Positions 47,146 to 63,923 of a stretch of 64,000 bases of DNA are shown here, in pieces. The DNA comes from Microbacterium schleiferi. Lineage in GTDB: Bacteria > Actinomycetota > Actinomycetes > Actinomycetales > Microbacteriaceae. Below the pieces are notes generated by a model that was not told the DNA's origin, searched no databases, and saw only the letters and a program-made list of their open reading frames with translations. The stretch covers positions 304,786 to 368,785 of the forward strand of contig NZ_JAJGNI010000002.1 of NCBI RefSeq assembly GCF_020781975.1, written 5' to 3'. Within the stretch, counting starts at the first letter, position 1; every line of letters begins with the position of its first letter. The position numbers and the translations under genes were made by a program.

Positions 47146-47218
47146 GGCTCTGTAGCTCAGTTGGTAGAGCGCACGACTGAAAATCGTGAGGTCACGGGAT
47201 CGACGCCCGTCGGAGCCA
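47146..47218 (+). tRNA. tRNA-Phe(GAA), integration target
   Basis: 73 nt. Acceptor GGCTCTG pairs with CGGAGCC, and the anticodon arm CACGA-CTGAAAA-TCGTG gives anticodon GAA. The T-loop reads ATCGACG, so position 54 is A and not the nearly universal T. Bases 47175-47208 (anticodon arm to T-arm) are repeated exactly at 63890-63923, so this gene is the left junction of the integrated element and stays intact. Confidence 0.95.
47175..47208 (+). other. attL core of the integrative element
   Basis: A 34-base segment within tRNA-Phe, beginning GACTGAAAATCGTG and ending GATCGACGCCC. It is identical to 63890-63923. Location in a tRNA 3' half is typical for tyrosine-integrase attachment sites of actinomycete elements. 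Confidence 0.85.
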
Positions 47219-47248
47219 CAAGGACCGTCGTTACAACGGCCCCAGAAA

Positions 47249-47286
47249 CCCTCGCCTAGCTTCTACATGGCGGGGGTTTTGCTTTG
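47249..47286 (+). terminator. Terminator after tRNA-Phe
   Basis: The hairpin CCCTCGCC (47249-47256) / GGCGGGGG (47269-47276) is followed by TTTTGCTTT. It is a good intrinsic terminator for the tRNA transcript, and it lies inside the integrated element. Confidence 0.75.
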
Positions 47287-47331
47287 CCCAGGTGAGGGGT
47301 GGTTTCTACCGGCACATAGTTGGCGCCTCTC

Positions 47332-47362
47332 CGGTCGCTGAGCGAGCGAAGCGAGTCGAAAC
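47332..47362. repeat. REP-like sequence (GGTCGCTGAGCGAGCGAAGC type)
   Basis: Positions 47333-47362 match the ribosome-independent dispersed motif GGTCGCTGAGCGAGCGAAGC followed by GAGTCGAAAC. I recognise it as a common intergenic repeat of Microbacteriaceae and relatives. Its presence just inside the element could reflect local recombination. Confidence 0.5.
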
Positions 47363-47448
47363 GGCCCCTCCCGAGAAGGCCGGTTCACTGGCCCCGTCGG
47401 CGGCTTGGGCCGGTCTGGGGCCGGTTCGCGCTCCGATACGGTGCAAAT

Positions 47449-48162
47449 ATGGACGCCTCATTGCTTACTGTTCGACAGCTCGCCGACGAACTAGACGTCG
47501 ACCCGAAGGCTGTTCGCGCGTGGATGCGGCGACAGAACTGGCGGCACCCGGTAGAAGCCGGCACGGCTTGGGTCATGAAAGATGGACAGGCTGAACTCGT
47601 CCGCCAGCATTTCGCGCGCAGCGGCGTTCAGTCAGCGACAACACTCCCGACGGACGTCAGCGATGAGCTCGCCCAGATCACTGTAGGTCAGCTGCTCCGC
47701 CGCTATGCCGATATCCTCGCGGAGCTCCGTCACCGCGGGCTCGTCCGTACCAACAACGCACCGATTGGCGACCTGGCCGAGTACTGCGCGGCGATCGTGT
47801 ACGACGGACTCCTCGCTCCCAACTCCGAGAAGTCCTACGATCTTGTCGCCGATGATGGACGCAAAGTGCAGGTGAAGGTCCGCGCCATTCGTTCAGACAC
47901 CAGCCCGTCCGCGGTGTTCTCGCCGATTCGCTCCTTCGGCTTCGACGTGTGCATCTTCCTGCTCGTAGACGGCGACAACGACGGAATCATCGCCGCACGC
48001 GAGTGGACAGCCAGCGAGGTGCAAGAGGCTGGCAAGCACCGCGCCCACACGAACGGCGTAGTGGTGCGCGTAGGCCAGGTGAGATCCGCTTCCGCCCGCG
48101 GACTCGATCGCGTCGAGGAGTTTCAGCGAGCTTGGCAGGAACTAAGCGAGCAGACCCGCTGA
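47449..48162 (+). CDS. HTH protein with C-terminal nuclease-like (DUF6998-type) domain
   Basis: 237 residues. The N-terminal 40 residues form a MerR/excisionase-like helix-turn-helix (LLTVRQLADELDVDPKAVRA, WMRRQNWRHP). The C-terminal part reads IGDLAEYCAAIVYDGLLAPN, KSYDLVADDGRKVQVKVRAI and GFDVCIFLLVDGD. The spacing of an acidic residue in YDLV and K-V-Q-V-K-V strongly resembles the D-xQxK core of PD-(D/E)xK nucleases such as DUF6998 proteins. It may be a DNA-binding nuclease or a site-specific regulator. First gene of the left cargo; ATG at 47449. It converges on the GIY-YIG gene with a 15-base gap. Confidence 0.7.
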   Translation: MDASLLTVRQLADELDVDPKAVRAWMRRQNWRHPVEAGTAWVMKDGQAELVRQHFARSGVQSATTLPTDVSDELAQITVGQLLRRYADILAELRHRGLVRTNNAPIGDLAEYCAAIVYDGLLAPNSEKSYDLVADDGRKVQVKVRAIRSDTSPSAVFSPIRSFGFDVCIFLLVDGDNDGIIAAREWTASEVQEAGKHRAHTNGVVVRVGQVRSASARGLDRVEEFQRAWQELSEQTR

Positions 48163-48177
48163 CACAGCGTCGGCGAG

Positions 48178-49038
48178 TCAGTTCAAGTTCATGCCATGAG
48201 CGCGCGAGTCGAGCGCTTGCTTCCAGAAGGCCTCGCGCTTGAGGATGACCTCGTCCTTCGTCTTCGGATCGAAGATCTCAAGGATCGAGTACTGGAAGTT
48301 GCCGACGATGTGTCCGTCGCCGAGATCGAGTCGCATCCTCTCGAGTTCTCGGTTGCCGCCCGTGAGGTTCTTCAGGTGGGCGTATGCCGCCCACCGCTGC
48401 CACAGACCGTTCGCCTCGCCCGACGCGGATCCAACGTAGAGGCGGCCGTCGCTGAGATCGGTGATCACGTATACACCCTTGACGCTCGAGAGCGCGTCGC
48501 GCCAGCTCGGTTCGTCATTGGCGATGATCCGCTGCAGCTCGTGATGCCGAAGTCTGACGTTCTGGTAGCCGGGGAACGTTCCGAGTTTCGTGTCTGGTGC
48601 GAGCTCGTATACTTCCGGCCCAAGTTGATCCTGAACACTCTCGTACTTGCGGAGATAGACGTTTCGGCCGATCGGACGCTCAAGCTTGATGATCAACCGT
48701 TTGATGAACTCCGAATGCAACGGCAGAGGCTCAAGCTCGTACCCGTACGCGTTGATCGCCGCCGGAACGATCGGTGTGACTTTGAAGAATCCGCCGAAGA
48801 TGAAGTATTGCGGGCCGTAGGGGTAGTACTGCGCCCAAGCGAGCAGGTACCGGGAGCTCCCGAGATTGTTGTTCGTCTGCTTGGTGCGCCAACGACTCAT
48901 GTTGAGCCACTCCTCGTGGTCGTCCATGAGGAGGTCCCACGCTTCCCCACCACCTCCACCTGCTCGCATGTTGAACTTGAGCTTGGTCGAGGAAGGCTCG
49001 GGTACCGGCAGGAAATCGGTCAGTCTGATCATCGTCAC
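48178..49038 (-). CDS. GIY-YIG nuclease-family protein
   Basis: 286 residues. The N-terminal about 180 residues are a novel-looking domain (SSRYLLAWAQYYPYGPQYFI, VPAAINAYGYELEPLPLHSE) with no family I can name. The C-terminal 100 residues are a GIY-YIG nuclease: KGVYVITDLSDGRLYVGSAS, GLWQRWAAYAHLKN and the catalytic Glu in VILKREAFWKQAL. It cuts DNA with a divalent metal. Such fusions occur in phage-defence and mobile contexts. Its start overlaps the stop of the 106-residue gene by 4 bases, which shows co-translation. Confidence 0.8.
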   Translation of the reverse strand: MTMIRLTDFLPVPEPSSTKLKFNMRAGGGGGEAWDLLMDDHEEWLNMSRWRTKQTNNNLGSSRYLLAWAQYYPYGPQYFIFGGFFKVTPIVPAAINAYGYELEPLPLHSEFIKRLIIKLERPIGRNVYLRKYESVQDQLGPEVYELAPDTKLGTFPGYQNVRLRHHELQRIIANDEPSWRDALSSVKGVYVITDLSDGRLYVGSASGEANGLWQRWAAYAHLKNLTGGNRELERMRLDLGDGHIVGNFQYSILEIFDPKTKDEVILKREAFWKQALDSRAHGMNLN

Positions 49039-49355
49039 CTCGTTGAACCTCTACGACCGAAGGTTATCGGCGACGCCTGGAGGACAGGGCTCGATCCGCG
49101 CATTCGGCCGTTCGCACTCGATTCCGCAGTCGGCGCTGCCTCCACGATGGCGGCGTAATCCTCGTCTGTGAGCAGATTGGAGATGTACGCGAACTCAACC
49201 GCGTCGAAGCTGTTCGGCACCGACTCCCAGTCATCGGCGAGCCCAGTTGTCTTGTACTGCGGCTCGTAGTGCCAGGTCTTGAGAATGCGGACCAATTCGT
49301 CGTGATCGATCTCGCCCTCGGCAGCCCGCCTCACGACGTCCATTGCGGTATCCAT
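49035..49355 (-). CDS. Unknown small acidic protein (106 aa) coupled to the GIY-YIG gene
   Basis: It starts at the ATG at 49355 with GAGGAGG upstream. The N-terminal about 75 residues form a helical acidic unit (MDTAMDVVRRAAEGEIDHDE, VEFAYISNLLTDEDYAAIVE). The last about 28 residues are basic and of different character (RMRGSSPVLQASPITFGRRG). Its stop overlaps the start of the nuclease gene by 4 bases. A role as partner or inhibitor of the nuclease is possible from the coupling alone; no relative is recognised. Confidence 0.6.
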   Translation of the reverse strand: MDTAMDVVRRAAEGEIDHDELVRILKTWHYEPQYKTTGLADDWESVPNSFDAVEFAYISNLLTDEDYAAIVEAAPTAESSANGRMRGSSPVLQASPITFGRRGSTR

Positions 49356-49407: not shown

Positions 49408-50046
49408 TCAGGCCTCACCTACAGCACCGCGCGCGAGGGCCGCGAGCCACGCATCGATCACGTCGAAGCGGATAGGCGCGAACCCCGAGGCATCGACACC
49501 GACGTGGAACTCGTGCGAGCCGTGAGCGCCGAACGCTCGATCGTGAGTGTGCCCGTGGAGAAGGGGAACACCGGTATCGGCCGGGCGGTGCGAGCTGTGG
49601 CGTTCGACGCCAGTCGTGTCGCCCTCGAATGGGTAGTGGGATGCGATCAGCCGCACACCGCCGCGCTGGCCCTCGACGATCTCCGGCAGCACCGCCCATC
49701 CAGCCGCCTCGTACATCGGTAGGAAACGCTCGATCGCCCGCTTCGACTGCGTCGCCGGCGAGACTCGGTCGTGGTTGCCCGGCACCAGCAGTCGGCGCCC
49801 GTTGAGCTGCGACGTCAGCCCAACGCTCTCCTCGATCGGTCCGAGCGCCAGGTCGCCGAGATGGAGAACGACGTCGTCGGGACCGACGATTGCGTTCCAT
49901 CGGTCGATCATCGCCGCGTTCATCTCATCGACCGAGCCGAATGGCCGGCCAGCGAGCTCGCTGATGCGAGCGTGCCCGAAGTGGTGATCGCTCGTCACGA
50001 AGTCGACGGCGTCGAAGCCGAACTCCCTTGCGGGTTGGCCTGTCAT
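49408..50046 (-). CDS. Calcineurin-like metallophosphoesterase
   Basis: 212 residues. All five metal-binding blocks are present: SDHHFGHARI (residues 19-28), VVLHLGDLALG, LLVPGNHDRV, LIASHYPFEG and LLHGHTHDRAFG. These proteins hydrolyse phosphodiesters or nucleotides; compact versions like this are frequent in phages and mobile elements. The substrate is unknown. It lies directly downstream of the antitoxin-like gene and overlaps its 3' end by 122 bases. The next gene starts 52 bases after its stop. Confidence 0.85.
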   Translation of the reverse strand: MTGQPAREFGFDAVDFVTSDHHFGHARISELAGRPFGSVDEMNAAMIDRWNAIVGPDDVVLHLGDLALGPIEESVGLTSQLNGRRLLVPGNHDRVSPATQSKRAIERFLPMYEAAGWAVLPEIVEGQRGGVRLIASHYPFEGDTTGVERHSSHRPADTGVPLLHGHTHDRAFGAHGSHEFHVGVDASGFAPIRFDVIDAWLAALARGAVGEA

Positions 50047-50263
50047 GCCACCCTCCCTGTATCTCGACGTTCAGCGCTTCAATCACCGACGCGACGTCAC
50101 CAAGTTTGATGCAGTCGATCGGACGGCGGCCCTCCAGGTGCGCATTGTGGCCCAGAAGCCACCCTCTGCTCGCCTGGGGCAAGTAGAACTGACGCAGCAG
50201 CTCCGCTACGTCAGCAGGAATCTCAACCGCATCGGGATCATCCGCAAGCCGATCGTCGCTCAT
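49925..50263 (-). CDS. Xre/MbcA/ParS-like (DUF2384) small protein
   Basis: 112 residues. The core VAELLRQFYLPQASRGWLLG, HNAHLEGRRPIDCIKLGDVA and SVIEALNVEIQGGW resembles the C-terminal toxin-binding domain of MbcA/ParS-type antitoxins, with the GRRPID motif. The last about 40 residues overlap the metallophosphoesterase gene and are Arg-rich noise, so the original stop has probably been lost. Its ATG overlaps the stop of the upstream DUF7662 gene by 4 bases. No RES toxin is next to it, so the partner could be the neighbouring nuclease-like protein. Confidence 0.6.
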   Translation of the reverse strand: MSDDRLADDPDAVEIPADVAELLRQFYLPQASRGWLLGHNAHLEGRRPIDCIKLGDVASVIEALNVEIQGGWHDRPTRKGVRLRRRRLRDERSPLRARSHQRARWPAIRLGR

Positions 50264-51012
50264 GCGGGGGTCCGATAGACGCTGACATCCCAGCCCGGCA
50301 GGCTCGTGTCGTCGTCAAGTGAATCGAGGATGGTCGACAGCGGCGGCGGGACGAGCCAGTCATTCCACCTCTCGGTCTCCCCTTTGTCGCCGGCGGCGAA
50401 CCGATCCGGGCGTTCCCAAGCGTCCCAGGCGAGGTCAAGCACGTGATGCTCGATCACCAACGCCGCCCACCGGTTCGCCAAGGTCATACGATCGACGACC
50501 GTCGCAGAGGCACCGCCGACCGCGATGACCCGCTTGCTTCCCACCCGAGTCAAGCCGACCTTGAACTGTCCGAGTCGCGGAAGGTGAAGAAGGTACGTGT
50601 CATGAGGCTCCCACCAACGCTGCTCGACGTGCGGATCGTCGACGGAGCGAGGCGGGTTCGCCAGACTCGTTCGGGCGTATCCCAACCAGTCTGATCGGAT
50701 TCGCTGAATGCGCTCGAGCGGGTTGTTCCGAACGAAGACCTCCCACACGAACGTGACCGTTTCTGCAGCCAGGTCTGCTTCTGCGCGACGATCGGCGCGG
50801 AGCCATGCCCGGCTTTGGGGCTGCCGCGGAATGGATTGCCACCAGTAGGGCATCAAGCGCGCCTGGGTGGGCAAGTCCCGGCCAATCATGGCCTCGATGT
50901 CAGTGAACGACAGGACGGCGTCTTCCGCCGGGTCAACCTGACGCAGGTAGTCTCCGAGCGGCGTGTACATGAGTTCGAGCCGCGACAACGGCTGATCAGA
51001 TTCTGTCGACAT
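50260..51012 (-). CDS. DUF7662 domain protein with GIY-YIG/T5orf172-like C-terminus
   Basis: 250 residues. The N-terminal segment reads YTPLGDYLRQVDPAEDAVLS, FTDIEAMIGRDLPTQARLMP and WWQSIPRQPQSRAWLRADRR, the pattern of DUF7662. The C-terminal domain has DTYLLHLPRLGQFKVGLTRV and LANRWAALVIEHHVLDLAWD. There KVGLT takes the place of the second strand of GIY-YIG/T5orf172 nucleases, and a helix carries the Glu. It probably binds or cuts DNA. ATG at 51012 with AAGGA upstream. It starts an operon with the DUF2384-like gene. Confidence 0.65.
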   Translation of the reverse strand: MSTESDQPLSRLELMYTPLGDYLRQVDPAEDAVLSFTDIEAMIGRDLPTQARLMPYWWQSIPRQPQSRAWLRADRRAEADLAAETVTFVWEVFVRNNPLERIQRIRSDWLGYARTSLANPPRSVDDPHVEQRWWEPHDTYLLHLPRLGQFKVGLTRVGSKRVIAVGGASATVVDRMTLANRWAALVIEHHVLDLAWDAWERPDRFAAGDKGETERWNDWLVPPPLSTILDSLDDDTSLPGWDVSVYRTPA

Positions 51013-51100
51013 GGGCATTCCTTTCGGGTGTTGGAAGCGATCTCGCCTCATACGTATAGGCCTCGGTTTGGCTGCTTCGCGGACAATCCAATTTCGAGAA

Positions 51101-51301
51101 TCATGGCCAGCGCTCGAAGACGTCGTCGAGAGCATCCAGGTGCGCGACCGAGCGCTCGATGTGCGCCAGCTCGAACTCGTCCGCGAAGTCGTCGGCGTTA
51201 CGGTGCAGCAGGCTGCGGTACTCCCCCAGCGCGTTCACGAGGATGGCGTGGCACTCCGGGTTGGCGAGCAGCTCGTCGAGCTCCTTGTGGGCGCCCATCA
51301 C
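51101..51301 (-). CDS. Small protein downstream of the integrase (66 aa)
   Basis: A helical acidic protein (LDELLANPECHAILVNALGE, FADEFELAHIERSVAHLDAL). Its GTG start overlaps the integrase stop (GTGATG), so translation is coupled; an ATG one codon later is equally possible. No family recognised. Position suggests a role in integration or excision control. Confidence 0.6.
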   Translation of the reverse strand: MMGAHKELDELLANPECHAILVNALGEYRSLLHRNADDFADEFELAHIERSVAHLDALDDVFERWP

Positions 51302-52431
51302 TCCCCCTCACCGAACAGCGAGTCGATGGCGGCCGCCGCGCGGCGGGCAACGTCAGAACGGGCGCGGCTGTAGCGCTCAGTCATCTGCATGCTCGAGTGG
51401 CCGAGCACCGCCTGGACGTCGTTCGCCGAAGCGCCGGCGTCGAAGAGCATCGTCGCGAGCGTGTGACGCAGGTCGTGGATGCGGAGATCCTCGCGGTGCA
51501 GCGTCGCGCGGAGCATCTTCCAGTCGATCGCGCGCCGCACGTTGGAGGCGTTGATCCGACCGCCGCGAGGGCCCGTGAACACGAGGTCACCGCGGTGCTT
51601 GCCGGCCATGGCCTCGGTCAGCGGAGCGACGAGCGGTGTCGGTATCGGGACGTCCCGCTCCTTGTGGCTTTTCGGCGTCAGCTCGACCCCGCGTCCGTCC
51701 GCGCCGATGCTGAATGCCCGGCGCACGTGGATCGTCCGATGCGCAAGATCGACGTCTTCTATGCGCAATGCCGTCGCCTCATTGGCGCGCATACCGGTGT
51801 AGACAAGAGCGGCGATGTAGCGGCGATAGTGCGCATCATCGATCGCTGCAAGCAGCGTCGGCACCTCCGCAGCCGTGAGCGCGCGAGAGCGCAGACTCGT
51901 CGCCGACTCTGACTTCGGACGACGCGCGAGACGCGCCTGGTTCAGCGGCACAAGGTGCGCACGAACAGCACCATCGAGCAGGCGGCTCAGTACCGAGAGT
52001 GCATCGATCCGCGTGGATGTGCTCCCCTCCCACCCGGCGATCGCCTCCTCGATGACTCCCGCCGTGAGCTTCTCGAGCTTCACGTGGCCCAGCCACGGCT
52101 TCACCCGCAGCCGCCAGCCGCGCTCGTACGCCCGCGCAGTCGATGCGCGCACGCTGCCCTCGATGACCGACCAGTGCCGCGAGTGCCATTGGGTGAGCGT
52201 CATGTCACCATCGGGATAGCGGCGAGTGAGGGTCTCCGCGCGGAGCTTCTTCGCCTCCGCGAGCGTCTCGACATAGGTCGACCGTTCGCGCTGCGCGCCG
52301 TTCAAACCGATGGCCCAGACGCGCACCTGGTACTTGCCGCGGTCCTTGCGGAAGCGGATACCCTCGGGCAGCGGACGCCGGGTCTTCGGGTCTATCCGCT
52401 CCCCTCGTTCAGCCGACACCGCGGGTACCAC
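51298..52431 (-). CDS. int: Tyrosine recombinase/integrase
   Basis: About 377 residues. The N-terminal arm- and core-binding SAM-like domain is at about 25-170 (MTLTQWHSRHWSVIEGSVRA). The catalytic domain has all six active-site residues: Arg in VYTGMRANEATAL, a beta-hairpin Lys, HDLRHTLATMLFDAG with His and Arg, His in LGHSSMQMT and the nucleophile Tyr in ERYSRA. It integrates the element at tRNA-Phe and, with Xis, excises it. The start is GTG at 52431 or 52419, overlapping the end of xis in either case. It is unusually far (about 4 kb) from either junction. Confidence 0.95.
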   Translation of the reverse strand: MVPAVSAERGERIDPKTRRPLPEGIRFRKDRGKYQVRVWAIGLNGAQRERSTYVETLAEAKKLRAETLTRRYPDGDMTLTQWHSRHWSVIEGSVRASTARAYERGWRLRVKPWLGHVKLEKLTAGVIEEAIAGWEGSTSTRIDALSVLSRLLDGAVRAHLVPLNQARLARRPKSESATSLRSRALTAAEVPTLLAAIDDAHYRRYIAALVYTGMRANEATALRIEDVDLAHRTIHVRRAFSIGADGRGVELTPKSHKERDVPIPTPLVAPLTEAMAGKHRGDLVFTGPRGGRINASNVRRAIDWKMLRATLHREDLRIHDLRHTLATMLFDAGASANDVQAVLGHSSMQMTERYSRARSDVARRAAAAIDSLFGEGE

Positions 52432-52651
52432 CGGCCTCGAGGAACGCTGCGACGGTCGACGCCCGCCACAGCATGTGCTTGCCCATGTGCGCGTCGGGGA
52501 ACGGGAACCGGTTCTGACGCCGCAGCGAGTCGAAGGTCGACAGCGGCACGCGGCAGAGCGAGGCCGCCTCACGGCGCGTCAGGTACTCATTCGGCTCGGC
52601 GTGGTCGGCGATGTCGATCTCGGGGTCGTCGACGAGAGTGTGAGTGGTCAT
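52409..52651 (-). CDS. xis: Excisionase (HTH_17/AlpA-like)
   Basis: 80 residues. A MerR-like winged helix EYLTRREAASLCRVPLSTFD, then RFPFPDAHMGKHMLWRASTV, matches excisionases that bend DNA at att sites. The ATG at 52651 has AAAGGAG upstream. It overlaps rep by 4 bases and int by about 20, the compact rep-xis-int order typical of AICEs. Confidence 0.88.
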   Translation of the reverse strand: MTTHTLVDDPEIDIADHAEPNEYLTRREAASLCRVPLSTFDSLRRQNRFPFPDAHMGKHMLWRASTVAAFLEAGGTRGVG

Positions 52652-54015
52652 GTCGTGCTCCTTTCGGTGGGTGGGGTGTTGCGATCTCGTGCGCGATCGT
52701 GGCGCCACTGGCGGGCGGCATCCGCGGCTTCTCTCGCGAGTGCTTTGTCGCCGTCGGTGAGCCAGCCCATGCCCGCATATGCCCATGAGCCAATGACGAG
52801 CACCTCGTCGGGGTTGATCTCCTCGGTCGGCTTCGTCTTCGCGAGCAGGTGCTTGAGGCGCCAGGTCCGTCGTGCGCCACGTAGTGATCCGAGCGTCACG
52901 GAGTATCGCCGCGACTTCGTCGAGAAGTGACCTCGGAAGCCGAGCATGCCGTCCCAGCGATGCAACTGCTCGTACGGTCCTTCGGAATCAACGACGGTCG
53001 CCAGCTCGCGCACGGTCGATTTGATGCGCTTGATGTGGTCACGGCCGGAGCCCGTCGGCTCAAGCTCTTCGGTCGCTTTGGTGGCGTACTTCGCGATGTA
53101 GGCGGCCACAGCGCGGTCAGACAGTGCGCCGTCAAGACCCTCGCGACGCACGATCGGCCGCACGTCGAACTGCTTGCCCCAAGCGAGCGTGCGAGTCCTG
53201 GCGTCGCCAGGAAGTGGAGCCGCAGCGACGCTCGTCTTCCTCACGGCGGACTGGATCGCCGTCACCAAGTGATCGGTCGTCACTGCGGCCGGCGGCGCCG
53301 GGAAAGGGAGCTCGGGATGGATGCCGTCGAGCCGGATGATGGCGTGGAAGTGGACGACTCCCCGGCGCTGGAACTCGGCGACCTTCGCGAACTGCAGCCG
53401 TACGACGCGGGCCGCTGCGCGCTGCGTCATGCCGAGCGATCGAGCCAGCTCGCGGCGCAGCCGGATCGTGAACCGACGCCACAACTCGGGCGCGTGGTAC
53501 TGCCAGACGACGTGACCGACGTAGTCGTAGCACTCGGCGCACACCGCATCGCCCCGCTGCGGATCGTCGTCGTCATGGTGGCAGCGGCATCCTCTCGGCT
53601 TGCCGTGTTCGCAGACGCCGGTGCGACGGTCGACGGCGGTCGTGTGAACGGCTCCGAACGACGGGGCTGTGAGCGTGAGGAAGACCATCGGGTGCTCGGC
53701 GACCTCCTCTGGCACCTCCTTCATCCCACCCGCAGCGCCGGCCATGATCATGTGCCAGGTGTCGCCCTTGTACTCGTGACTGCAGGACTCGCAGCGTGTG
53801 GCGCGTCGATTGCCGCACCGAGTGAAGGTGACGCCGTCAGGTTCGCTCGTCGACGAGTACTCCGAGAGGATCTCGCCGGATGCCTCGTGGAGCGTCGTCG
53901 AGGATCCGACGAGACGCACCGGGTTGAGGCAGTAGCCCGTCGAGGCGACGTTGTGCATCCAACGGTCGTACTCCTCGCTGCGGAGCCGCCGCGCGACGGA
54001 CTCATCGAGACGCAT
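52648..54015 (-). CDS. repSA: RepSA-like rolling-circle replication initiator
   Basis: 455 residues. Rolling-circle motifs are seen: FLTLTAPSFGAVH (motif I), RGVVHFHAIIRLDG with HUH-type histidines (motif II) and YIAKYATKATEEL with the candidate nicking Tyr (motif III). A Cys-rich region (CGNRRATRCESCSHEYKGDT; HGKPRGCRCHHDDDD; CAECYDYV) probably binds zinc. This is the actinobacterial replication initiator of AICEs and pSAM2-like plasmids. Its start at 54015 overlaps the lipoprotein stop by 14 bases. Confidence 0.9.
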   Translation of the reverse strand: MRLDESVARRLRSEEYDRWMHNVASTGYCLNPVRLVGSSTTLHEASGEILSEYSSTSEPDGVTFTRCGNRRATRCESCSHEYKGDTWHMIMAGAAGGMKEVPEEVAEHPMVFLTLTAPSFGAVHTTAVDRRTGVCEHGKPRGCRCHHDDDDPQRGDAVCAECYDYVGHVVWQYHAPELWRRFTIRLRRELARSLGMTQRAAARVVRLQFAKVAEFQRRGVVHFHAIIRLDGIHPELPFPAPPAAVTTDHLVTAIQSAVRKTSVAAAPLPGDARTRTLAWGKQFDVRPIVRREGLDGALSDRAVAAYIAKYATKATEELEPTGSGRDHIKRIKSTVRELATVVDSEGPYEQLHRWDGMLGFRGHFSTKSRRYSVTLGSLRGARRTWRLKHLLAKTKPTEEINPDEVLVIGSWAYAGMGWLTDGDKALAREAADAARQWRHDRARDRNTPPTERSTT

Positions 54016-54430
54016 CGGTCACCACCATCACGGGCACCGCGCAGCCGATCGGGTAGGTCAGGCCCATGAACGGGTCGTCGTACCAGGTAATGCGGCAGAT
54101 CTCATCGCTCTCGCCGGTTTCGCGGCGCAGCTCCTGCCAGTTGATGATCGCTGCGTCCGAGCAGGAGTTGTTCGCGATGGTCGGCCCGTAGTCGTCGAGC
54201 AAGCTGTCGTCGACAGCGGGCGCGTCGTATCGTGCGACTTTGAGGATGGCGGCGCGGTCCCACTTCTCCCCCAGGTTGCAGGGCGCAAGAACGTCAGCGG
54301 GGCGCGTCACGGTCGTCTGGCGGCTTGGGGTGGGTGACGGGCTCCCAGTCGGCGCCGCACAGCCCGACAGGACGAGCGCCGCGACGAGGCCACCGATGGC
54401 GGCCGATGCGAGACCACGGATGCTGTTCAT
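54002..54430 (-). CDS. Lipoprotein of the transfer operon
   Basis: 142 residues. Signal peptide with lipobox LVLSGC at Cys24, a Pro/Thr/Ser linker and then a small globular domain with three cysteines (APCNLGEKW, NNSCSDAAI, DEICRITWY). It is surface-anchored. Being translated between the translocase and Rep, it may help mating-pair contact or block re-entry of the same element. That is inference; no homologue is recognised. It overlaps the translocase stop by 4 bases. Confidence 0.75.
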   Translation of the reverse strand: MNSIRGLASAAIGGLVAALVLSGCAAPTGSPSPTPSRQTTVTRPADVLAPCNLGEKWDRAAILKVARYDAPAVDDSLLDDYGPTIANNSCSDAAIINWQELRRETGESDEICRITWYDDPFMGLTYPIGCAVPVMVVTDASR

Positions 54431-56397: not shown

Positions 56398-56949
56398 ATG
56401 AGCGAACTACCGGCGCTGCCGACGTGGGGCGTTGTTCCCGACCCGGTTCGCAACGTCCTCCAGCGACTCAAGGAGCGAGCCGCCGCCGGGGTCGAGGCAA
56501 TGGACACTCAGAAGATCAGCGGCGAGACCCCGCAGAACCACGACGAAGCGTTCCTGCAGATGTCGTGGGCAGCCGAAGCCGCCGATCGCGCCACACGGGA
56601 CTATCGCAGCGTCTTCAACGCCTACACGCACAAGTTCCACCAGCCGAAGCCGCCGATCGGCGAACTCGCTGCAATGCAGGGAGCGATCACACAGTCATTC
56701 GCGAAGCGGTACACGCCGAAGACCGTCGAGGCGATCGAGGCATTGCTCTCTGAGGAACCCAACCTCGACGCGATCCGTTCGGGCATCCGCGCCCTCGGCT
56801 TCGAGGATCTCCGCGGTATCTCCGACGCGCTCGACCGAGCGATGGCGGCCGCCGAGTCTGAGCGTGGCTTTCACCCATGGCTGCCGGCGGCCGACAAGGC
56901 TCGTGCCGCGAGCCGCGCCCTACAAGCCTTCGGCGACGACGAGCTGTGA
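56398..56949 (+). CDS. Unknown protein divergent from the transfer operon (183 aa)
   Basis: All-helical, soluble and charged (VRNVLQRLKERAAAGVEAMD, FLQMSWAAEAADRATRDYRS, TVEAIEALLSEEPNLDAIRS). The ATG at 56398 has GGAGGGG at the ideal distance. It is the only plus-strand gene in the backbone and shares the operator region with the transfer operon. It could be a regulator or a spread-type protein, yet it lacks an obvious helix-turn-helix. No family recognised. Confidence 0.65.
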   Translation: MSELPALPTWGVVPDPVRNVLQRLKERAAAGVEAMDTQKISGETPQNHDEAFLQMSWAAEAADRATRDYRSVFNAYTHKFHQPKPPIGELAAMQGAITQSFAKRYTPKTVEAIEALLSEEPNLDAIRSGIRALGFEDLRGISDALDRAMAAAESERGFHPWLPAADKARAASRALQAFGDDEL

Positions 56950-57092: not shown

Positions 57093-59684
57093 TCAGTAGT
57101 TCGAGGCGACCGTGCCCCGATAGAGATCCTCTGCGCTCGCGGCAGTCTGAATCGCCTCACGGACGTGTTCCTCGGTGAGGTCAAGCACACGTAGCGTCTC
57201 GTCGACCTTCGAGATCGCCTCGATACGGTGGAACGCGCCAGCATGCTCCTCGGCGTAACGCGCGAGACCCCGGAGTTTCGGGAGCGTATCAGGGAGGTCA
57301 TGCCAGTGCGGATCCACAATTGACGGCCGAACCTCCGCGCCAACCTCGTTGAAGAACACCAGGTCAGGAAAAAGCCGGCGCCATGCGCCCTTCTTGTCGG
57401 TATATGCGACCGCGAGCGCATCGTCGGAGCGAGGCGGGTTCCGGTACCAGGCAACTGCGTGAGGCAGCTCTCTATCAAGCACCTCGCGTTCCCAGCTGCC
57501 GAGCGACCCGATCGGAAACTGTCCATCCTCGTCTGCCATCAGGTGTCCGGCGCGCGTCGGCACGAGGTTGCCGTCAGTGTCCCTCGACGACTCGGTACGA
57601 ACCTTGGGTCGCAGGATCGGGATGGTCTGAGGTACGCCGGTCATTGCTGTCAGCTCGGCATAGACAGCGCGCCGTTCGTCCGGGAGCGCCTTGATCGCGA
57701 TCCGATAATCCCGGAGCCAGTCTTCGGCGAGCTTGTTCGCAGCACGATCAAGTTCCTCGCCCACACCGGGGACGCGAGCAAGCGCGGCGACTGTGAGGTG
57801 CGCGGTGAAGAACCCGTCGTCATCGTCTCCGAGGCGATCGGCGATCCGCTCGGCATAGCGCGAAGCGAGTTCGCGGCCAAGGACACGTCCCGCCGCACGG
57901 TACTCAGCTTCGACAGCGCGATCGTCGGCAATCTCAGAGAACTTCTCCGTGCCGGCGATCAGTCCGGTACGAACGGAGGCCACGATGGTGGTTCCGTCGA
58001 CGGTCCGGATGTCGTCGCTCGCGGCCGCCAGTTGCTTCTCGTAGCGCGCTGCGACGCCATCAAGGACGCCGAGCAATTCCGTGTAGGCGGCCTTCGTGGC
58101 ACCGGGAAGAATCCCGTCAAACGCCAGTGCCTGCGCCAGCCCCGACAATCGCGACGTCGGCCGGGCACCCTTACGGGGAAGCGTCTCCGACGGCAATTGA
58201 TCGAAGGCGTCCCAGACGAGGTCGATGACGGTGTCGTTCACGAGCATGTCGACCGGCGCGACAAGCACACGTCGACCCTCGCCGCCGCCAGAGCCGCCGC
58301 TTTGGCCGGTCTCGTCGTCAGGCTCGCTGCCGTCGGTCGTGCCGAGCAATAGTCGGACTACGCGAGAGGCGGTCTGCTTCTCGAAGAACGGCAGAATGCA
58401 CTCGACGGAGTTCAGCAGGTCGTTGCCGGGTACACGGCGTGCGAGGGGCGTGCGCACCATACGTCCCAGCAGCTGCGTGATGTGCGTGTCGTCGCTCGCG
58501 GGGCGGAACGAGACGAGCACCTCGGCGCGAGGACAATCCCATCCGGTGCTGATCGCGTCCTTTGCCAACAGCACGCGGACGGCAGTGCGCTCCTGGACAT
58601 TCTCGGGGCTGATGTACGGAATGACGTGCCCGGCGACGGCGAGGTCGCTGTGCTCACCAAACACGTGAGCGATGTTCGCATCAGACAGCTGCGGCCACTC
58701 CTCCACGATCGCTTGGATTGCATCGGTGAGCATCGCCTGCGTCGGCGTATTCGGCACCTGCACGACCAGCAGCGGAACCACGGGGTCATCCGTGGACGAC
58801 TGCGCCTGGTGGTAGTCCGACCAAAGCTTCGTGGACTCCTTCACCTGGCGCACGCCCCGTCGCAGCAGCACAGTGTCGAACGTGCCCGCCTCCGCCGGGA
58901 AATGCAGACGGATGTCGTCCTTGAGGAGCCCGGATTCCTGCACGCGCCCCGGATCGACTTCCACGTTGGGCAGGATCACCCGCCCCGCTGATTCCGCAAT
59001 CGCCTGGTTGAAGCGATCCACGGTCGCACTGATGCCGAGTACGATCGGTACCGGCGGCGCACCGGCCTCACCGTTGATGAGCTGCCGGACGATCGTCGAC
59101 TTCTCGGCGCGCTCGTTGCGGGACTGCTTCCGCATGCCACGATGAGCCTCATCGAGAATCACGTAGAGCGTGAGCTCAGGATCCTCGATCGTGTTGCGCA
59201 GCACATCCCAGAACGTCTGGGCCTGGTTGTCCGGCGGGATCAACATGTCCTCGGCGTTTGTCTCGGTGCCACCCCGCACGAGCCATGAACGGGCGGACAG
59301 CTTCTGCGAGTTGAGGAAGTAGACATTGCCCGGGTCGAGGCGGGGCTCGGAGAACGTGCTGCCGATCACGCGCAAACGCGAGTATGGGACCTCGTCGGTG
59401 GCCTGCAGGATCCGGAACCTAGTCTGCTCGTTCAGCGACGGATCGCTGGTGAACCACAGTACGACCGCACCCGGGTCTGCGGCGAAGTCGAAGTCCTCGT
59501 TGCCGTTGAAGAGCGCTTCGATGACCGCGGCTGCCATCACGGTCTTGCCTGCACCGGTGACCGCCGAGAGGGAGAACGCGGAGCGTCGCGGCCGCGCACG
59601 GTGGAAGTCCTCGCGGGCGTCAGCAAGGTTGGCCAGGACGTCTCGGACGGCATCTTCCTGGTAGTCCTTCAGGGTGAACTTCAC
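57093..59684 (-). CDS. Type III restriction-like DEAD/DEAH helicase subunit (Res)
   Basis: 863 residues. SF2 motor: motif I SAVTGAGKTVMAAAV (about 42-56), motif II ILDEAHRGM, SAT in ISATVDRF, and motif VI region ITQLLGRMVRTPLARR. The C-terminal nuclease-like region has FPDLVFFNEVGAEV and then SIVDPHWHDLPDTLPKLRGL. The usual ExK of PD-(D/E)xK Res proteins is not seen, so cleavage may be absent or use other residues. GTG start overlaps the stop of the methyltransferase gene (GTGA). It works with Mod to recognise unmethylated DNA and translocate. Confidence 0.85.
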   Translation of the reverse strand: MKFTLKDYQEDAVRDVLANLADAREDFHRARPRRSAFSLSAVTGAGKTVMAAAVIEALFNGNEDFDFAADPGAVVLWFTSDPSLNEQTRFRILQATDEVPYSRLRVIGSTFSEPRLDPGNVYFLNSQKLSARSWLVRGGTETNAEDMLIPPDNQAQTFWDVLRNTIEDPELTLYVILDEAHRGMRKQSRNERAEKSTIVRQLINGEAGAPPVPIVLGISATVDRFNQAIAESAGRVILPNVEVDPGRVQESGLLKDDIRLHFPAEAGTFDTVLLRRGVRQVKESTKLWSDYHQAQSSTDDPVVPLLVVQVPNTPTQAMLTDAIQAIVEEWPQLSDANIAHVFGEHSDLAVAGHVIPYISPENVQERTAVRVLLAKDAISTGWDCPRAEVLVSFRPASDDTHITQLLGRMVRTPLARRVPGNDLLNSVECILPFFEKQTASRVVRLLLGTTDGSEPDDETGQSGGSGGGEGRRVLVAPVDMLVNDTVIDLVWDAFDQLPSETLPRKGARPTSRLSGLAQALAFDGILPGATKAAYTELLGVLDGVAARYEKQLAAASDDIRTVDGTTIVASVRTGLIAGTEKFSEIADDRAVEAEYRAAGRVLGRELASRYAERIADRLGDDDDGFFTAHLTVAALARVPGVGEELDRAANKLAEDWLRDYRIAIKALPDERRAVYAELTAMTGVPQTIPILRPKVRTESSRDTDGNLVPTRAGHLMADEDGQFPIGSLGSWEREVLDRELPHAVAWYRNPPRSDDALAVAYTDKKGAWRRLFPDLVFFNEVGAEVRPSIVDPHWHDLPDTLPKLRGLARYAEEHAGAFHRIEAISKVDETLRVLDLTEEHVREAIQTAASAEDLYRGTVASNY

Positions 59685-61846
59685 CGGTCGCCTCCGACGT
59701 TGATCGTGAAGTTGGTCAGATACGACTCGTACAGCCGCACCGGCTCGACATGCTCAGGAAGCCCTGCACACACGAGCTGAAACGCCCGATCGTCGTCGGT
59801 GACGATGAACGCCATCCTGGCATTCGGCCGAGCGCTGAGCTGGTCCACGAACGGGCGCGACTGGTCGACCTCGAACAGCACCCCGTACACGTCCGCAACG
59901 GCAAAGCCCTCCTCCGCGATCGCATCGATGCGCGCGCCCTCGGCGCCGGCCCGGAGCCACAGCAGCGGGGCAATCGCCGAGAACGCGCGATTGTGCGCGA
60001 CCATCCTGGGCGTCTCGTAGGTGAGCGTGAAGAACTCCACGTTCTCCCCGAGACCGTCAGCCATCGGGAACTCGTCGATGAACTTGTAGTCTCCGTTGAT
60101 CGCCTCGCCGTCCGGTGTCTTGCCTGTAATCGCGGCACGGATTCGAGGCTTGGTGATGTGGTCGCAGATCCCCCACTGTTCCCACTCGGCGTCACCAGGG
60201 CGTAGCCCCTCAGCGCTTAGACGGCTCTGCTCCTCCATGCCCACTTCGTTGTTGGTCACGCTGATGGACGACCTGCTCCCACCGTCCTGCCGGTTTAGAC
60301 GCATAACCGCGTGCGTAGTTGTTCCCGAGCCGGCGAAGAAGTCGAGCACGACAGCGTCCGGCTTGTCGGCGATCACGAACCGCAGCGAGTCCTCTACTGC
60401 GTAGAGAGATTTCGGGAATGGGAACCGCCGACCTGGTAGGAGCTTGCCGATCAGGTTCGAGCCGTGATCTCGAGCGAAGTGACTGGTACGGCTCCATACG
60501 GTGCGAGGCGCCACAGCCTTTGCCCTTTCCCCGAGCCCAAGCTCAAGGGCACCCTCTGCGGTGCGGCCGAGCACCTCAAAGGTGCCGTTAGCGATGTTCG
60601 CCAGAGTGCCGGGCTGCAGATAGGTCACGGGGCGCAGGCCCGTGAGCGGATCCCGCCGACCCAAACGTGCAGTGCCGTTCGCGAAGTGGCGGCGCATCGC
60701 GTCCGCCGAGAATCGCCATCGGTTCTCGCGCCCGTCGGTGGTGAGGGGCCAGATGGCCAGCTCTCCAGGAGCAAGCGGAAAGTCATGCCTCGAGCTTCCG
60801 TGGGGTAGCGGGTCTCCGACCCGGATGAAGGCTCCTGTCTCGGCGTCGATGACAACGGGGTAGAAGCTCGCCTTACCGGACTTCTTGTCCTCACGGGCGG
60901 AGCCGCTGCCTCGCCGGACGGCCGTGAACCACACCGTCGGCATCGGGGTCGTCGCCTCATCTTCACCGAGCATTGTCGACGTCCACGGGGTCACCGCGGC
61001 CTCGCCGATAAAGACGTAGTAGATGTACTCGTCGACGCGTGAGAATCGCCCCGCGCGCGGGGAGCCGGCGCGATTGATGACATCGCTGACCATCTGGATG
61101 TCTGCCTCGGGGAACACCTGCGAGAGCAGCAGGCCGAGGCGGAGGTATTCCTTCTCGTCGATGGTCACAATGAGCACGGAGTCGAGCGGGTTGAGGAGGC
61201 GCTTGGCGAGCTTGAGGCGCCGTTCCATAAAGGCGAGCCACTTGGAGTGCCGGTATATGTCCTCACCGTCGACGTAGTCGTTGTTGTACTTCCAGTCGCG
61301 GGCGCCGGTGTTGTAGGGCGGGTCGATGTAGATCGCGTCGACCTTGCCCTCGTGGGTGTAGAGCAGCGTCTGGAGCGCGTGGAAGTTCTCGGCGTTGATG
61401 ACGGTGTGAAACGGCTTGCCACCGCCGCGTTCGACCTTCCCGGTCGAGACCAGGCCGGGGTATATCGGGTCGCGGAACTCTGCGATGACGACGAGGTCTT
61501 CGACTGCGCGCTGCGCGGTCTCGAGCTCAACCATCTCGTCGGCATCATCGGCGACGTGCAGGACGAGCTGTGCGACCGGCTGGGCGCCCGATCGGTTGAT
61601 GCGCGTGACACGCCAGACTCGTCCGTCGACGGTCGACGCTGCGGCACCGCGCGCGGGAATGAACCGCACCTTGTCGCCTACCCGCACGGGCCGTCCGGGC
61701 AGTTCGACGGTCTCGGGAGCGTGCCGCTCGAAGTTCAGGCCGAAGGCGCGCCGCCCGCTGACGGCGTCATACTCGCGGGCGATATCCGCTGCGAGCTGAG
61801 GGTTGAGCTGTTCGACATGCTTGACCAGCTGAGAGAAGCGCGACAC
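59681..61846 (-). CDS. Type III DNA methyltransferase (Mod), N6-adenine beta class
   Basis: 721 residues. An N-terminal beta domain (about 40-125) precedes the catalytic motif IYIDPPYNTGARDWKYNND (DPPY, about 190). The target-recognition region is in the middle, and the AdoMet motif VVLDFFAGSGTTTHAVMRL comes near residue 505. Motif IV before motif I defines the beta order used by type III Mod proteins. It methylates adenine in an asymmetric site and supplies specificity to Res. GTG start at 61846 with a weak ribosome site. Divergent from the AlbA_2 gene across the 12-bp repeat array. Confidence 0.92.
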   Translation of the reverse strand: MSRFSQLVKHVEQLNPQLAADIAREYDAVSGRRAFGLNFERHAPETVELPGRPVRVGDKVRFIPARGAAASTVDGRVWRVTRINRSGAQPVAQLVLHVADDADEMVELETAQRAVEDLVVIAEFRDPIYPGLVSTGKVERGGGKPFHTVINAENFHALQTLLYTHEGKVDAIYIDPPYNTGARDWKYNNDYVDGEDIYRHSKWLAFMERRLKLAKRLLNPLDSVLIVTIDEKEYLRLGLLLSQVFPEADIQMVSDVINRAGSPRAGRFSRVDEYIYYVFIGEAAVTPWTSTMLGEDEATTPMPTVWFTAVRRGSGSAREDKKSGKASFYPVVIDAETGAFIRVGDPLPHGSSRHDFPLAPGELAIWPLTTDGRENRWRFSADAMRRHFANGTARLGRRDPLTGLRPVTYLQPGTLANIANGTFEVLGRTAEGALELGLGERAKAVAPRTVWSRTSHFARDHGSNLIGKLLPGRRFPFPKSLYAVEDSLRFVIADKPDAVVLDFFAGSGTTTHAVMRLNRQDGGSRSSISVTNNEVGMEEQSRLSAEGLRPGDAEWEQWGICDHITKPRIRAAITGKTPDGEAINGDYKFIDEFPMADGLGENVEFFTLTYETPRMVAHNRAFSAIAPLLWLRAGAEGARIDAIAEEGFAVADVYGVLFEVDQSRPFVDQLSARPNARMAFIVTDDDRAFQLVCAGLPEHVEPVRLYESYLTNFTINVGGDR

Positions 61847-61882
61847 TGCACAAGACTAGGGGAATCGCGTCTCTCAACCACT

Positions 61883-61954
61883 CACATGATGATCCACATG
61901 ATGATCCACATGATGATCCACATGATGATCCACATGATGATCCACATGATGATC
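61883..61954. repeat. Six perfect 12-bp tandem repeats (CACATGATGATC)
   Basis: Units start at 61883, 61895, 61907, 61919, 61931 and 61943 with no mismatch. They fill half of the 142-base gap between the divergent Mod and AlbA_2 genes. The unit contains GATC and ATGATGAT and is much more AT-rich than the surroundings. TATGCT at 61957-61962 could be a -10 for the AlbA_2 gene, with repeats taking the place of a -35. This suggests an operator or activator array. Confidence 0.9.
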
Positions 61955-61988
61955 GCTATGCTCGTCTCTATGTGGAGCAAGAACTGAC

Positions 61989-63755
61989 GTGGACGCGACT
62001 GAACTTACCGAACTGGTTCGACGACTCCGGGCCATCGGCAGCGATCTAACCGACGTCGAGGTGAAGCGCGCAGAGGGTGGCCTCCCTCGATCCCTGCGCG
62101 AGACGCTCTCAGCTTTCTCGAACACCGCGGGCGGCACCGTCATCCTTGGCCTCGACGAGGCTAGCGGGTTCTCTGCCACAGGCCTACACGATCCCGCCGC
62201 TATGGCCGACAACTTTGCATCGATGTGCTCCACGGAGCTCGAGCCCCCAGTACGCGCGATCACGAACGTCGTCGAGTTCGAAGGCGTTCATCTCCTGGTG
62301 GCAGAGATTCCGGAGATCGACGCGTCTCTCAAGCCTTGCTACTATCGCGGTCAGGGGATGAACTCCGGATCGTATGTTCGTGTCAACGACGGAGACCACC
62401 GTCTCACGCCCTACGAGGTCCAGACTCTCGTTGCAAACCGCGGTCAGCCATTGGAGGACACTGCCCCGCTCACCAATCTCACCCTGGATGAGCTCGACGA
62501 GCAGCTCGTCGAGTCCTTCTACGCACGTCTGCGTCGGAGCCGCCCTCATGCCTTCGCATCCCTCGCTCGCGAAGACGCGCTCATCCGTTCGCGGGCAGTT
62601 TCGCGGACGGAGCAAGGCCTCGTACCAACGCTCGGTGGCCTGCTCGCACTTGGCAAATACCCACAGGAGCACTACCCGCAGCTCGCCGCAACGCTCGTCG
62701 TCTACCCAACCGACGACGGACCCGACGTTGCCTCCGGCACTCGCTTCCTTGACAACGTCACACTCGAAGGACCGCTCCCTGTGATTGCCGCCGACGCACT
62801 GACGGCAATCCGGCGCAACATGAAGCGACGCTCGACTGTGGACGGCATAGGCCGGACGGAGTCTTGGGAGTACCCAGAGGCGGCATTGCGCGAAGCAATT
62901 GTGAACGCGCTCGTCCATCGTGATCTTTCGCCTGCCGCCCGAGGAACACAGGTGCAGATCGAGATGTATCCAAGCAAGATCATCGTCCGCAATCCCGGAG
63001 GGCTATTCGGCCCGGTCTCCGTTGATGACCTCGCCGACGACGGCACCTCATCCTCCCGCAACTCCTTCCTCCTCAAAATGCTGGAGGACATCACACTGCC
63101 TGGCGACCCTCGCACCGTCTGCGAGAACCGAGGATCTGGGATTCGAACGATGGTCGAATCGCTGCGAGCCGCAGGAATGTCCGTCCCGCGGTTCGAGGAC
63201 AAGATCTCCTCGTTCTCAGTCACCTTCCCCAATCACACCCTGCTCGACGACGAAACAGTCGCCTGGATCCAGGGCCTTGCAGAACAGGGACTTACCGATT
63301 CCCAGCACATCGGGCTAGCAATGCTCCACAAGAACGGGACCATCGACAACCCCACGTACCGCAATGCCACCGGCGTCGACTCGCGTGTCGCGACAGCCGA
63401 GCTCCAAGACCTCGTGAGCCGTGAGCTCCTGGAGCAAGTCGGCACCCGCCGATGGACCGAGTACCGGCTGAGCGCTCGTAGCCGCACGGCTCCCTCGGAA
63501 CCCGAGCACAAATTGCCGCCGCGGGATCGTAGAAAGCTCATCCTCGACGCGATTGAAAACGACAAGCTCTCTCGGGCGGAGATCTCCGGGCGCACCGGCT
63601 TGAACAAGCAGGTCGTGATCCACTGGCTGCGCATCCTGCGGCAGGAACAGCAGGTTCGCATCGTTGGAGGCGAGTCGCCCCAGAGTCGCAATGTTCGTTA
63701 CGAGCGCACGCCGGATTCCTGGGGTGCCCAGACGCTCGACCTCGACGGACTCTAG
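61989..63755 (+). CDS. AlbA_2/HATPase_c_4 ATP-binding regulator-like protein
   Basis: 588 residues. N-terminal AlbA_2 (Schlafen-like) DNA-binding domain is at about 10-140 (ETLSAFSNTAGGTVILGLDE). The GHKL-type ATP-binding domain follows at about 290-400 (EAALREAIVNALVHRDLSPA, KIIVRNPGGLFGPVSVDDL, CENRGSGIRTMVESL). C-terminal winged helices end the protein (LSRAEISGRTGLNKQVVIHW). GTG start at 61989 with GGAG 12 bases upstream. The layout resembles RecG-like transcriptional regulators. Facing the restriction genes across a repeat array, it is likely their regulator or an accessory defence protein. Confidence 0.85.
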   Translation: MDATELTELVRRLRAIGSDLTDVEVKRAEGGLPRSLRETLSAFSNTAGGTVILGLDEASGFSATGLHDPAAMADNFASMCSTELEPPVRAITNVVEFEGVHLLVAEIPEIDASLKPCYYRGQGMNSGSYVRVNDGDHRLTPYEVQTLVANRGQPLEDTAPLTNLTLDELDEQLVESFYARLRRSRPHAFASLAREDALIRSRAVSRTEQGLVPTLGGLLALGKYPQEHYPQLAATLVVYPTDDGPDVASGTRFLDNVTLEGPLPVIAADALTAIRRNMKRRSTVDGIGRTESWEYPEAALREAIVNALVHRDLSPAARGTQVQIEMYPSKIIVRNPGGLFGPVSVDDLADDGTSSSRNSFLLKMLEDITLPGDPRTVCENRGSGIRTMVESLRAAGMSVPRFEDKISSFSVTFPNHTLLDDETVAWIQGLAEQGLTDSQHIGLAMLHKNGTIDNPTYRNATGVDSRVATAELQDLVSRELLEQVGTRRWTEYRLSARSRTAPSEPEHKLPPRDRRKLILDAIENDKLSRAEISGRTGLNKQVVIHWLRILRQEQQVRIVGGESPQSRNVRYERTPDSWGAQTLDLDGL

Positions 63756-63889
63756 CCCAACGGCGAGGGCCGGTGCCGGGCCGGGAACCCGGTTGAGACT
63801 ACCCGTGACCAGCCATCGCCAACCGGTACACGATCCGCGGAATCACGCGCCAACGAGCGCCAGTGAGCACCTGTCAACCCGCGAGAACG

Positions 63890-63923
63890 GACTGAAAATC
63901 GTGAGGTCACGGGATCGACGCCC
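63890..63923 (+). other. attR core of the integrative element
   Basis: An exact 34-base copy of tRNA-Phe positions 47175-47208. It is preceded by unrelated sequence and followed by CCGCCTTGCCTC, not by the tRNA 3' end, so it is not a functional tRNA and the chromosomal side has changed. Confidence 0.85.

Follow-up and report, generated by a model that had tools for sequence, protein, structure and literature searches.

Actinomycete integrative and conjugative elements (AICEs) are delimited, in the available portion of Ghinet 2011 (PMC3218068), by an integrase of the tyrosine or serine type (PF00589 or PF07508), a replication protein of the RepSA, RepAM or Prim-Pol type and an FtsK/SpoIIIE-like transfer protein, Tra (PF01580), with the integrase gene lying outside the interval between rep and tra. 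Insertion at the 3' end of a tRNA gene between flanking repeats is usual, though not obligatory. Described systems of this kind include pMR2 of Micromonospora rosaria (NC_006910) and the RepSA-type AICEs of Streptomyces (pSAM2 type). Here we analysed a 64,000-nucleotide stretch of Microbacterium schleiferi (assembly GCF_020781975.1), called the window, whose last base is the end of contig C22 at contig position 368785. All coordinates are window positions, and contigs, genomes and loci carry our own numbers (C, G and L). The window very probably holds an AICE of the pSAM2/pMR2 type, seated in the 3' half of the sole tRNA-Phe gene found, likely locked there by an insertion sequence (IS) and carrying an exchangeable defence slot. 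A genuine AICE-type element of an ordinary sort, it is no rarity in Microbacterium; what is noteworthy about it is the IS in the chromosomal copy of its attachment (att) site together with the restriction-rich slot.

The element-like stretch measures 16.7 kb and lies between two exact copies of a 34-bp direct repeat (Table 1). A preliminary description of this DNA, made from the sequence alone, had proposed an AICE-like element with two cargo modules bounded by these copies, one of them inside an intact tRNA-Phe. The repeat is as described: the 34-bp string occurs exactly twice in the assembly (34 contigs, 3,018,995 bases, 3.02 Mb), its reversed control string not at all, and the window has only these two copies even with up to 8 mismatches allowed. 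An Rfam scan of 47000-64000 returned two tRNAs only, and the left copy lies within the intact tRNA-Phe(GAA). Of the bounds proposed, 47175 to 63923, both repeat copies are real, but the natural repeat is longer and its right copy is cut by an IS-like repeat. The repeat begins in the tRNA anticodon loop, and exact identity of the left copy runs on to 47223 once contig C4 is counted; because the missing tRNA end resumes on C4, the true att repeat is at least 49 bp exact. The 3' half of the intact tRNA-Phe is presumably borne by the element.

Between the repeat copies, the core consists of a 183-aa protein on the forward strand, then Pra-FtsK-lipoprotein-RepSA-Xis-Int on the reverse strand. The integrase (Int) shows the Arg, HxxR, His and Tyr signature residues when read by eye, and Rep carries HFH at 222 and YIAKY at 306, the HUH and tyrosine motifs of its type. 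The int gene does not lie between rep and tra, the order being FtsK-Rep-Xis-Int, and the usual integration at a tRNA 3' end with flanking repeats is also present. The Int, Xis, RepSA-like and FtsK-like genes of the preliminary description are in place: Pfam confirms Int, RepSA and FtsK, and for Xis the open reading frame (ORF) that contains it has two weak PHROG matches (E 4e-8 and 5e-6). For Pra, the NCBI names of family members are often "plasmid replication, integration and excision activator". The six top-ranked plasmid rows in a search with FtsK were all actinobacterial, with pMR2 among them, and this protein is a predicted transfer ATPase. With these genes, the element would be predicted to excise by means of its own Int and Xis, to replicate as a rolling circle via RepSA, and to enter neighbouring cells as double-stranded DNA through the FtsK-like Tra.

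Further support comes from sites without the element. We read 20-kb stretches at tRNA-Phe from 15 genomes of the same genus, using an Xis query without its last residues (73 of 80). Int, Rep and FtsK of this element were found in none of 14 of these loci, one of which holds another att-bounded stretch, and the remaining locus (G006) holds a sister without the cargo genes of the window. The empty site that the preliminary description had called for is thus present in relatives, and the outcome it considered damaging, the same 16.7 kb in all of them, did not arise. Genes of contig C4 lie downstream of tRNA-Phe clearly in L058, L060, L062, L063 and L065 and weakly in L061, and the tightest empty site is that of L060, with the first C4 homologue 0.96 kb past the tRNA.

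Sister elements occur in other genomes as well. A close Int (E 1e-80 or better) occurs in 13 of 198 Microbacterium genomes including this one, so the idea that such an element is a rarity in a Microbacteriaceae-like genome does not stand. The wider proposal, an AICE-like element with two cargo modules at tRNA-Phe, draws support from its genes and their order, from the att structure, from sites lacking the element and from the sisters. Eight of the other 12 are at tRNA-Phe, three are beside tRNA-Thr/Met and one has only a right att of the tRNA-Phe type; a stop codon falls within three of the 13 Int matches. When named genomes were searched with Int, 12 loci emerged, of which eight are at tRNA-Phe, two are next to tRNA-Met/Thr and two are on pieces that show no tRNA; two genomes occur in both lists. 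The sisters, from Microbacterium, Glaciibacter and a Leucobacter metagenome-assembled genome (MAG), resemble the window element in carrying matches to FtsK, Rep and Xis and to at least a portion of Int (L067, L068, L071-L075, L077, L078, L092, L093 and L095-L100), and most are at tRNA-Phe. They differ from it in their slot cargo, although a few left-slot proteins are shared, and in the five loci beside tRNA-Thr/Met. Partial cores only were found in L069, L070, L101 and L102. Two att copies are in view in L067, L069, L070, L074, L100 and L101 (at most 6 mismatches to this tRNA), the right ones starting with ACTGAA at the anticodon loop.

The core is 91.5% identical in nucleotide sequence to that of M. 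testaceum NS220 (L067) over 51311-56949 (about 5.65 kb) and 91.9% identical to that of M. paulum 2C (L074) from 51298 on, and the Int, Rep and FtsK proteins are 93-95% identical to those of NS220. The syntenic chromosome of M. paulum 2C left of the tRNAs is only 69-81% identical (tRNAs excluded), and for NS220 one chromosomal piece of 0.7 kb is 74% identical. The slots have only DNA matches of less than 150 bp to these two loci, with distant sharing at the protein level (Mod, 27% in L067; the 291-aa protein, 47% in L074). Since the core stands at 91-92% against 69-81% for the chromosome, and the slots barely match, this sequence comparison gives the pattern expected of a core that has moved recently between species and swaps its cargo on both sides. 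A related core, with about 60-63% Int identity, lies beside a tRNA-Thr/tRNA-Met pair in L075, L077, L096, L097 and L099, and the family therefore seems to have switched target. The tRNA-Phe gene is also a hotspot shared with other DNA: a 14.2-kb att-bounded stretch without this core (L110:2455-16677, G011), a 2.7-kb att-bounded stretch (L047:12972-15759, G021) and a stacked pair with a third, degenerate att copy (L054, G006).

At the right end, C22 stops in the end of an IS-like repeat that begins at 63924. The last 77 bases of C22 are identical at the ends of contigs C30 and C11, the typical sign of a repeat at which an assembly breaks off. The only other occurrence of the missing tRNA end, GTCGGAGCCACA, is at base 82 of contig C4, whose start shares 77 bases with the end of C33 and (76/77) with the start of C30. 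After this 77-base repeat, C4 reads GCCC, then GTCGGAGCCACAAGG, then a terminator resembling the one beside tRNA-Phe (89 of 110 columns identical over tRNA end and terminator). When the flanks are read pairwise, 4-bp duplications appear at three insertions: GCCC (C22/C4), GGGA (C11/start of C30) and CGCT (end of C30/C33). We infer that the IS links C22 directly to C4 in the chromosome and that it interrupts the right att copy past its 34th base. The 77-bp IS end, searched for in 98 genomes (this one and 97 relatives), matched this genome only, and the IS interior was not found there; because the end matched this genome only, we leave the transposase family unnamed. The first gene of C4 (179 aa) was considered as the ancestral neighbour of tRNA-Phe and rejected: seven relatives have it on the same contig as the tRNA-Phe terminator, and there the two are 95-310 kb apart. 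The neighbours of tRNA-Phe in relatives are later C4 genes (five loci clearly, one weakly).

This arrangement bears on the fate of the host. When an integrase that targets a tRNA inserts DNA into the 3' half of the gene, the tRNA in use is made of a 5' part from the host and a 3' part from the element, and the 3' part of the host ends up at the opposite border of the insert. In this genome that distal copy breaks off after tRNA position 63, and the assembly has one full-length tRNA-Phe match, the other two matches being the cut copy and a tRNA-Met (C29). Excision anywhere within the 34 identical bases would join the 5' part of the tRNA to a 3' end consisting of IS sequence. When excision was performed in silico, ARAGORN recognised a tRNA-Phe before the join and none in the joined product, whose predicted fold loses the acceptor stem. 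Because the working tRNA-Phe would derive its 3' half from the element, a cell that excised it would have no tRNA-Phe left, and for that reason the element is likely fixed in this host. On this sequence evidence it is likely locked, and its loss would be expected to kill or cripple the cell. The excised circle would leave the IS behind and would still carry a whole att site. An early paper is said to have dealt with SLP1 and an essential tRNA-Tyr. We found no case in the literature of an IS or an essential tRNA locking an island, including in the available parts of PMC8978831 and PMC9956884.

The right slot of this element holds a type III restriction-modification (R-M) pair, in which Mod (DPPY) adjoins Res (helicase motifs); the PADLOC REase_III matches of Res are weak (best E 3.5e-9) and its nuclease motif is not clear. 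For the sisters, 43 right-slot ORFs from 18 loci, picked by length after a custom ORF pick, were run through PADLOC. Mostly smaller ORFs stayed outside this test (two of five were tested in L077, for example), and L068, L076 and L101 had no ORF tested. L096 was judged by tblastn against the Mod and Res described here and kept out of the count, and L054 and L094, which are the same contigs as L069 and L072, were counted once. Among the loci tested, the right att is in view only for G000 (this genome), L067, L069, L070, L074, L098 and L100; in the others the ORFs are at most about 8 kb from the core. Including this element, 18 of 19 right slots have a PADLOC match and 13 of 19 a DNA methyltransferase, counts that depend on ORFs chosen by size, on broad PADLOC models and on right boundaries that are mostly out of view; where the boundary is in view, the figures are 7 of 7 and 5 of 7. 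Matches were obtained for 32 of the 43 sister right-slot ORFs, two of seven left-slot ORFs and one of ten controls (eight ORFs on C4 and two in the window, gene status unchecked). The matching control, a large ORF outside the element at 22576-25260 (-), hit PDC-M37B (E 3e-34) and DolB (E 5e-29).

The systems themselves, given here by PADLOC model name, vary from locus to locus: another type III pair (L067), type II pairs (L074, L093), a type IIG enzyme (L092), cytosine methyltransferases (L069, L070, L072, L078), a methyltransferase with PbeA (L095, L099) or with PRTase and CARF6 models (L097), type I (L102), IetAS (L073), MzaC/D (L071), PD-T4-5 (L098), PDC-M68B (L100) and a partial PD-Lambda-5 match (L075), while the two ORFs tested in L077 gave no PADLOC match. 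The right slot would thus carry exchangeable defence systems that favour retention of the element. Restriction systems among the cargo of Streptomyces AICEs are reported in the available part of PMC9513070, and AICEs and PADLOC defence genes near diDNase genes in that of PMC11706625; the constancy of a restriction-rich slot in this element family may be new. It is tempting, if speculative, to combine the two features. The IS might act as a toxin-free maker of addiction, in that splitting the spare 3' half of the sole tRNA-Phe would kill cured cells and leave the circle clean and infectious, and the R-M systems of the slot might at the same time exclude sister elements, whose transfer is reported to be as double-stranded DNA, in place of the missing Pif-type immunity. 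We regard this double proposal as possible, with the chances somewhat against it.

Table 1. Features of the element and its borders, in window coordinates.
Feature	Position	Strand	Evidence
tRNA-Phe (GAA), intact; only full-length tRNA-Phe match in the assembly	47146..47219	+	
Left att copy; 34 bp common to the right copy on contig C22	47175..47208	+	
DUF6998 protein, like PADLOC type II methyl-directed restriction enzyme	47449..48162	+	PF22522, E 2e-7; mREase_II, E 3e-23
GIY-YIG protein, PADLOC UzuA model	48178..49038	-	E 3e-5 (domain); E 4e-50 (PADLOC)
Calcineurin-like phosphoesterase; common to several sisters	49408..50046	-	phrog_547, E 1e-39
291-aa protein of unknown function; homologues at the same place in several sisters	50260..51135	-	
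Tyrosine integrase (Int); longest ORF, true start uncertain	51298..52572	-	PF00589, E 1e-28
Xis, 80 aa; overlaps rep and int	52409..52651	-	phrog_66 and phrog_597, on the ORF holding Xis
RepSA-type rolling-circle initiator	52648..54015	-	PF20199, 509 bits
Predicted lipoprotein between FtsK and Rep	54002..54430	-	LSGC lipobox read by eye
FtsK/SpoIIIE-type Tra; P-loop GASGSGKAS	54427..55845	-	PF01580, 46 bits (cut-off 24)
Pra-family protein, 132 aa	55845..56243	-	Names of homologues; 39% to pMR2 protein
183-aa protein, predicted all-helical, at the core/right-slot border	56398..56949	+	
Type III restriction (Res) subunit-like helicase; Walker A AVTGAGKT, DEAH	57093..59684	-	PF04851; PADLOC
Type III DNA methyltransferase (Mod); DPPY	59681..61846	-	PF01555; PADLOC 845 bits, residues 1-717 of 721
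Tandem array of six 12-bp units, CACATGATGATC, separating the divergently oriented mod and AlbA_2 genes	61883..61954		
AlbA_2/HATPase_c_4 protein, right slot	61989..63755	+	Pfam
Right att copy, broken off at 34 bp where the IS-like repeat begins	63890..63923	+	
Left end of the IS-like repeat (presumably three genome copies); contig ends here	63924..64000		

Several points weigh against a functional, IS-locked AICE with a defence slot. Excision, a circle and transfer were not observed; the NCBIfam equivalog cut-offs are missed (RepSA, 401 of 700 bits; plasmid TraB, 28 of 800 bits); and the Tra P-loop reads GKAS rather than GK[ST], a form common to all 19 FtsK proteins aligned (the window's and 18 homologues), with GKGS in pMR2. 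Of the pSAM2-like accessory set, Pra is present, while no match to NUDIX (Pif), the GntR repressor or Spd was found among the ORFs scanned. These three fall outside the three components that Ghinet 2011 (PMC3218068), in its available part, requires. For the slot, 11 of 43 right-slot ORFs had no PADLOC match and one of the controls matched strongly. At the right end, the IS is left unbridged in the draft assembly, nine of the 15 relatives showed no C4 gene in the stretch read past tRNA-Phe, and there is the distance of the first C4 gene from the terminator. This distance and the unbridged IS might suggest that the link from C22 through the IS to C4 is a coincidence, and that the right att is merely a truncated repeat copy whose surroundings have been rearranged. 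We consider this very improbable, as the GCCC duplication matches, the missing tRNA end resumes at exactly that place, and later C4 genes follow tRNA-Phe in five relatives.

A more serious possibility is a decayed AICE remnant, kept as a chromosomal defence island and unable to excise or transfer. The IS-like repeat within the right att would fit this, and decayed or partial relatives do exist: the search detected no FtsK and at most a small part of Rep in L069 and L070, Int is cut near the tRNA in L078 and spread over two frames in L074, L101 and L102 are fragments with a partial Int and an FtsK-Int fusion, respectively, and there are the Int matches with stops. The core ORFs of the window, however, are uninterrupted and close to those of NS220, and the 34-bp crossover repeat is intact on both sides, so that we think decay unlikely here. 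That the stretch is instead a prophage, a phage satellite or an integrated non-conjugative plasmid is hardly credible: phage integrases do match at the family level (1704 records), and a PHROG (phrog_1358) matches FtsK, but in the 20 phage rows listed per search identity does not exceed 34% for Int and 31% for FtsK, no structural phage gene was seen among the ORFs scanned, and RepSA, Pra and FtsK stand in AICE order. It is also improbable that two elements are stacked, the 4 kb from tRNA-Phe to int being an older insertion. Accretion at this tRNA is seen in G006/L054, and 22 nt at 50481-50502 are 82% like the tRNA repeat, probably by chance; no further copy of the 34-bp repeat turns up in the window at up to 8 mismatches, and sisters with an att pair likewise have 1.7-8.3 kb between tRNA and int. 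We therefore retain the reading of a single AICE, likely locked by the IS.

Some of the remaining genes also deserve comment. In a comparison of the 13 elements with all four genes examined (badly delimited rows, namely 7 Int, 1 Rep and 1 Pra, dropped beforehand), the lipoprotein showed the lowest conservation among the four core proteins in 76 of 78 pairs of elements, and in the Leucobacter MAG element it is 48% identical versus 90-92% for FtsK and Rep. Its named homologues are from Microbacterium except for one labelled Bacteria, and the majority of its homologues are without a name; its predicted structure (mean pLDDT 77) does not match any PDB entry at E 0.001 or better. That it serves in mate recognition or exclusion would be a guess. 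The predicted structure of the 183-aa protein (pLDDT 88.5) likewise has no PDB match at that threshold. The left slot spans 47449-51135; the longest ORF of its DUF6998 gene begins at 47320, and the ATG at 47449 is the likelier start. The CACATGATGATC repeats are possibly regulatory, and since the unit length of 12 bp is divisible by three, gaining or losing copies would keep the reading frame.

We found no description of this element in the literature on AICEs in Microbacterium or Microbacteriaceae. In the available part of PMC5526665, AICEs appear only as a cited reference, that of PMC6868719 does not describe the element, and the main text of Ghinet 2011 (PMC3218068) makes no mention of Micrococcineae, Microbacter- names, Clavibacter, Leifsonia, Arthrobacter or testaceum. 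The present family places a compact AICE type, with a conserved core and two interchangeable slots, in the Microbacteriaceae, where non-mycelial hosts would allow a test of conjugation by a single FtsK-type protein. With its IS, the chromosomal tRNA copy offers a natural experiment on how a mobile element becomes inseparable from its host via an essential tRNA, and the restriction systems recurring in one slot make mutual exclusion of AICEs by restriction directly testable.

Among characterised elements, the closest relative found is pMR2. It has the same FtsK...Rep-Xis-Int order, its Tra is 39% identical over 355 aa (E 6e-61), its Pra-like protein 39% and its Int 30%, and its att is the 3' half of a tRNA-Phe starting in the same anticodon loop. 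It differs in its cargo, in having a DUF2637 protein plus several small ORFs at the place, between FtsK and Rep, that a single lipoprotein occupies in the window element, and in its Rep, which has no BLASTP match to the window Rep at E 1e-2; the latter is of the RepSA type by Pfam and not of the MR2 type. By its Pfam family we take the window Rep to be of the pSAM2 type. The RepSA-type Streptomyces AICEs share with the window element a PF20199 Rep, overlapping Xis and Int genes, Pra and an FtsK Tra, and two Streptomyces plasmid records read hypothetical-FtsK-small genes-Rep-helix-turn-helix-Int, with Rep 38-50% identical among the matches listed. One of these records has an SpdD-like gene and a NUDIX gene and the other a GntR gene, for which no counterpart was found in the window element, and in the first of them a DUF2637 gene and the SpdD-like gene stand between FtsK and Rep in place of the lipoprotein. 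Because order, Tra, Pra-like protein, Int and att match pMR2 while Rep belongs to the Pfam family of the pSAM2 type, the element combines MR2-like transfer with SAM2-like replication, and exchanges between AICE sub-families are described in the available part of Ghinet 2011 (PMC3218068).

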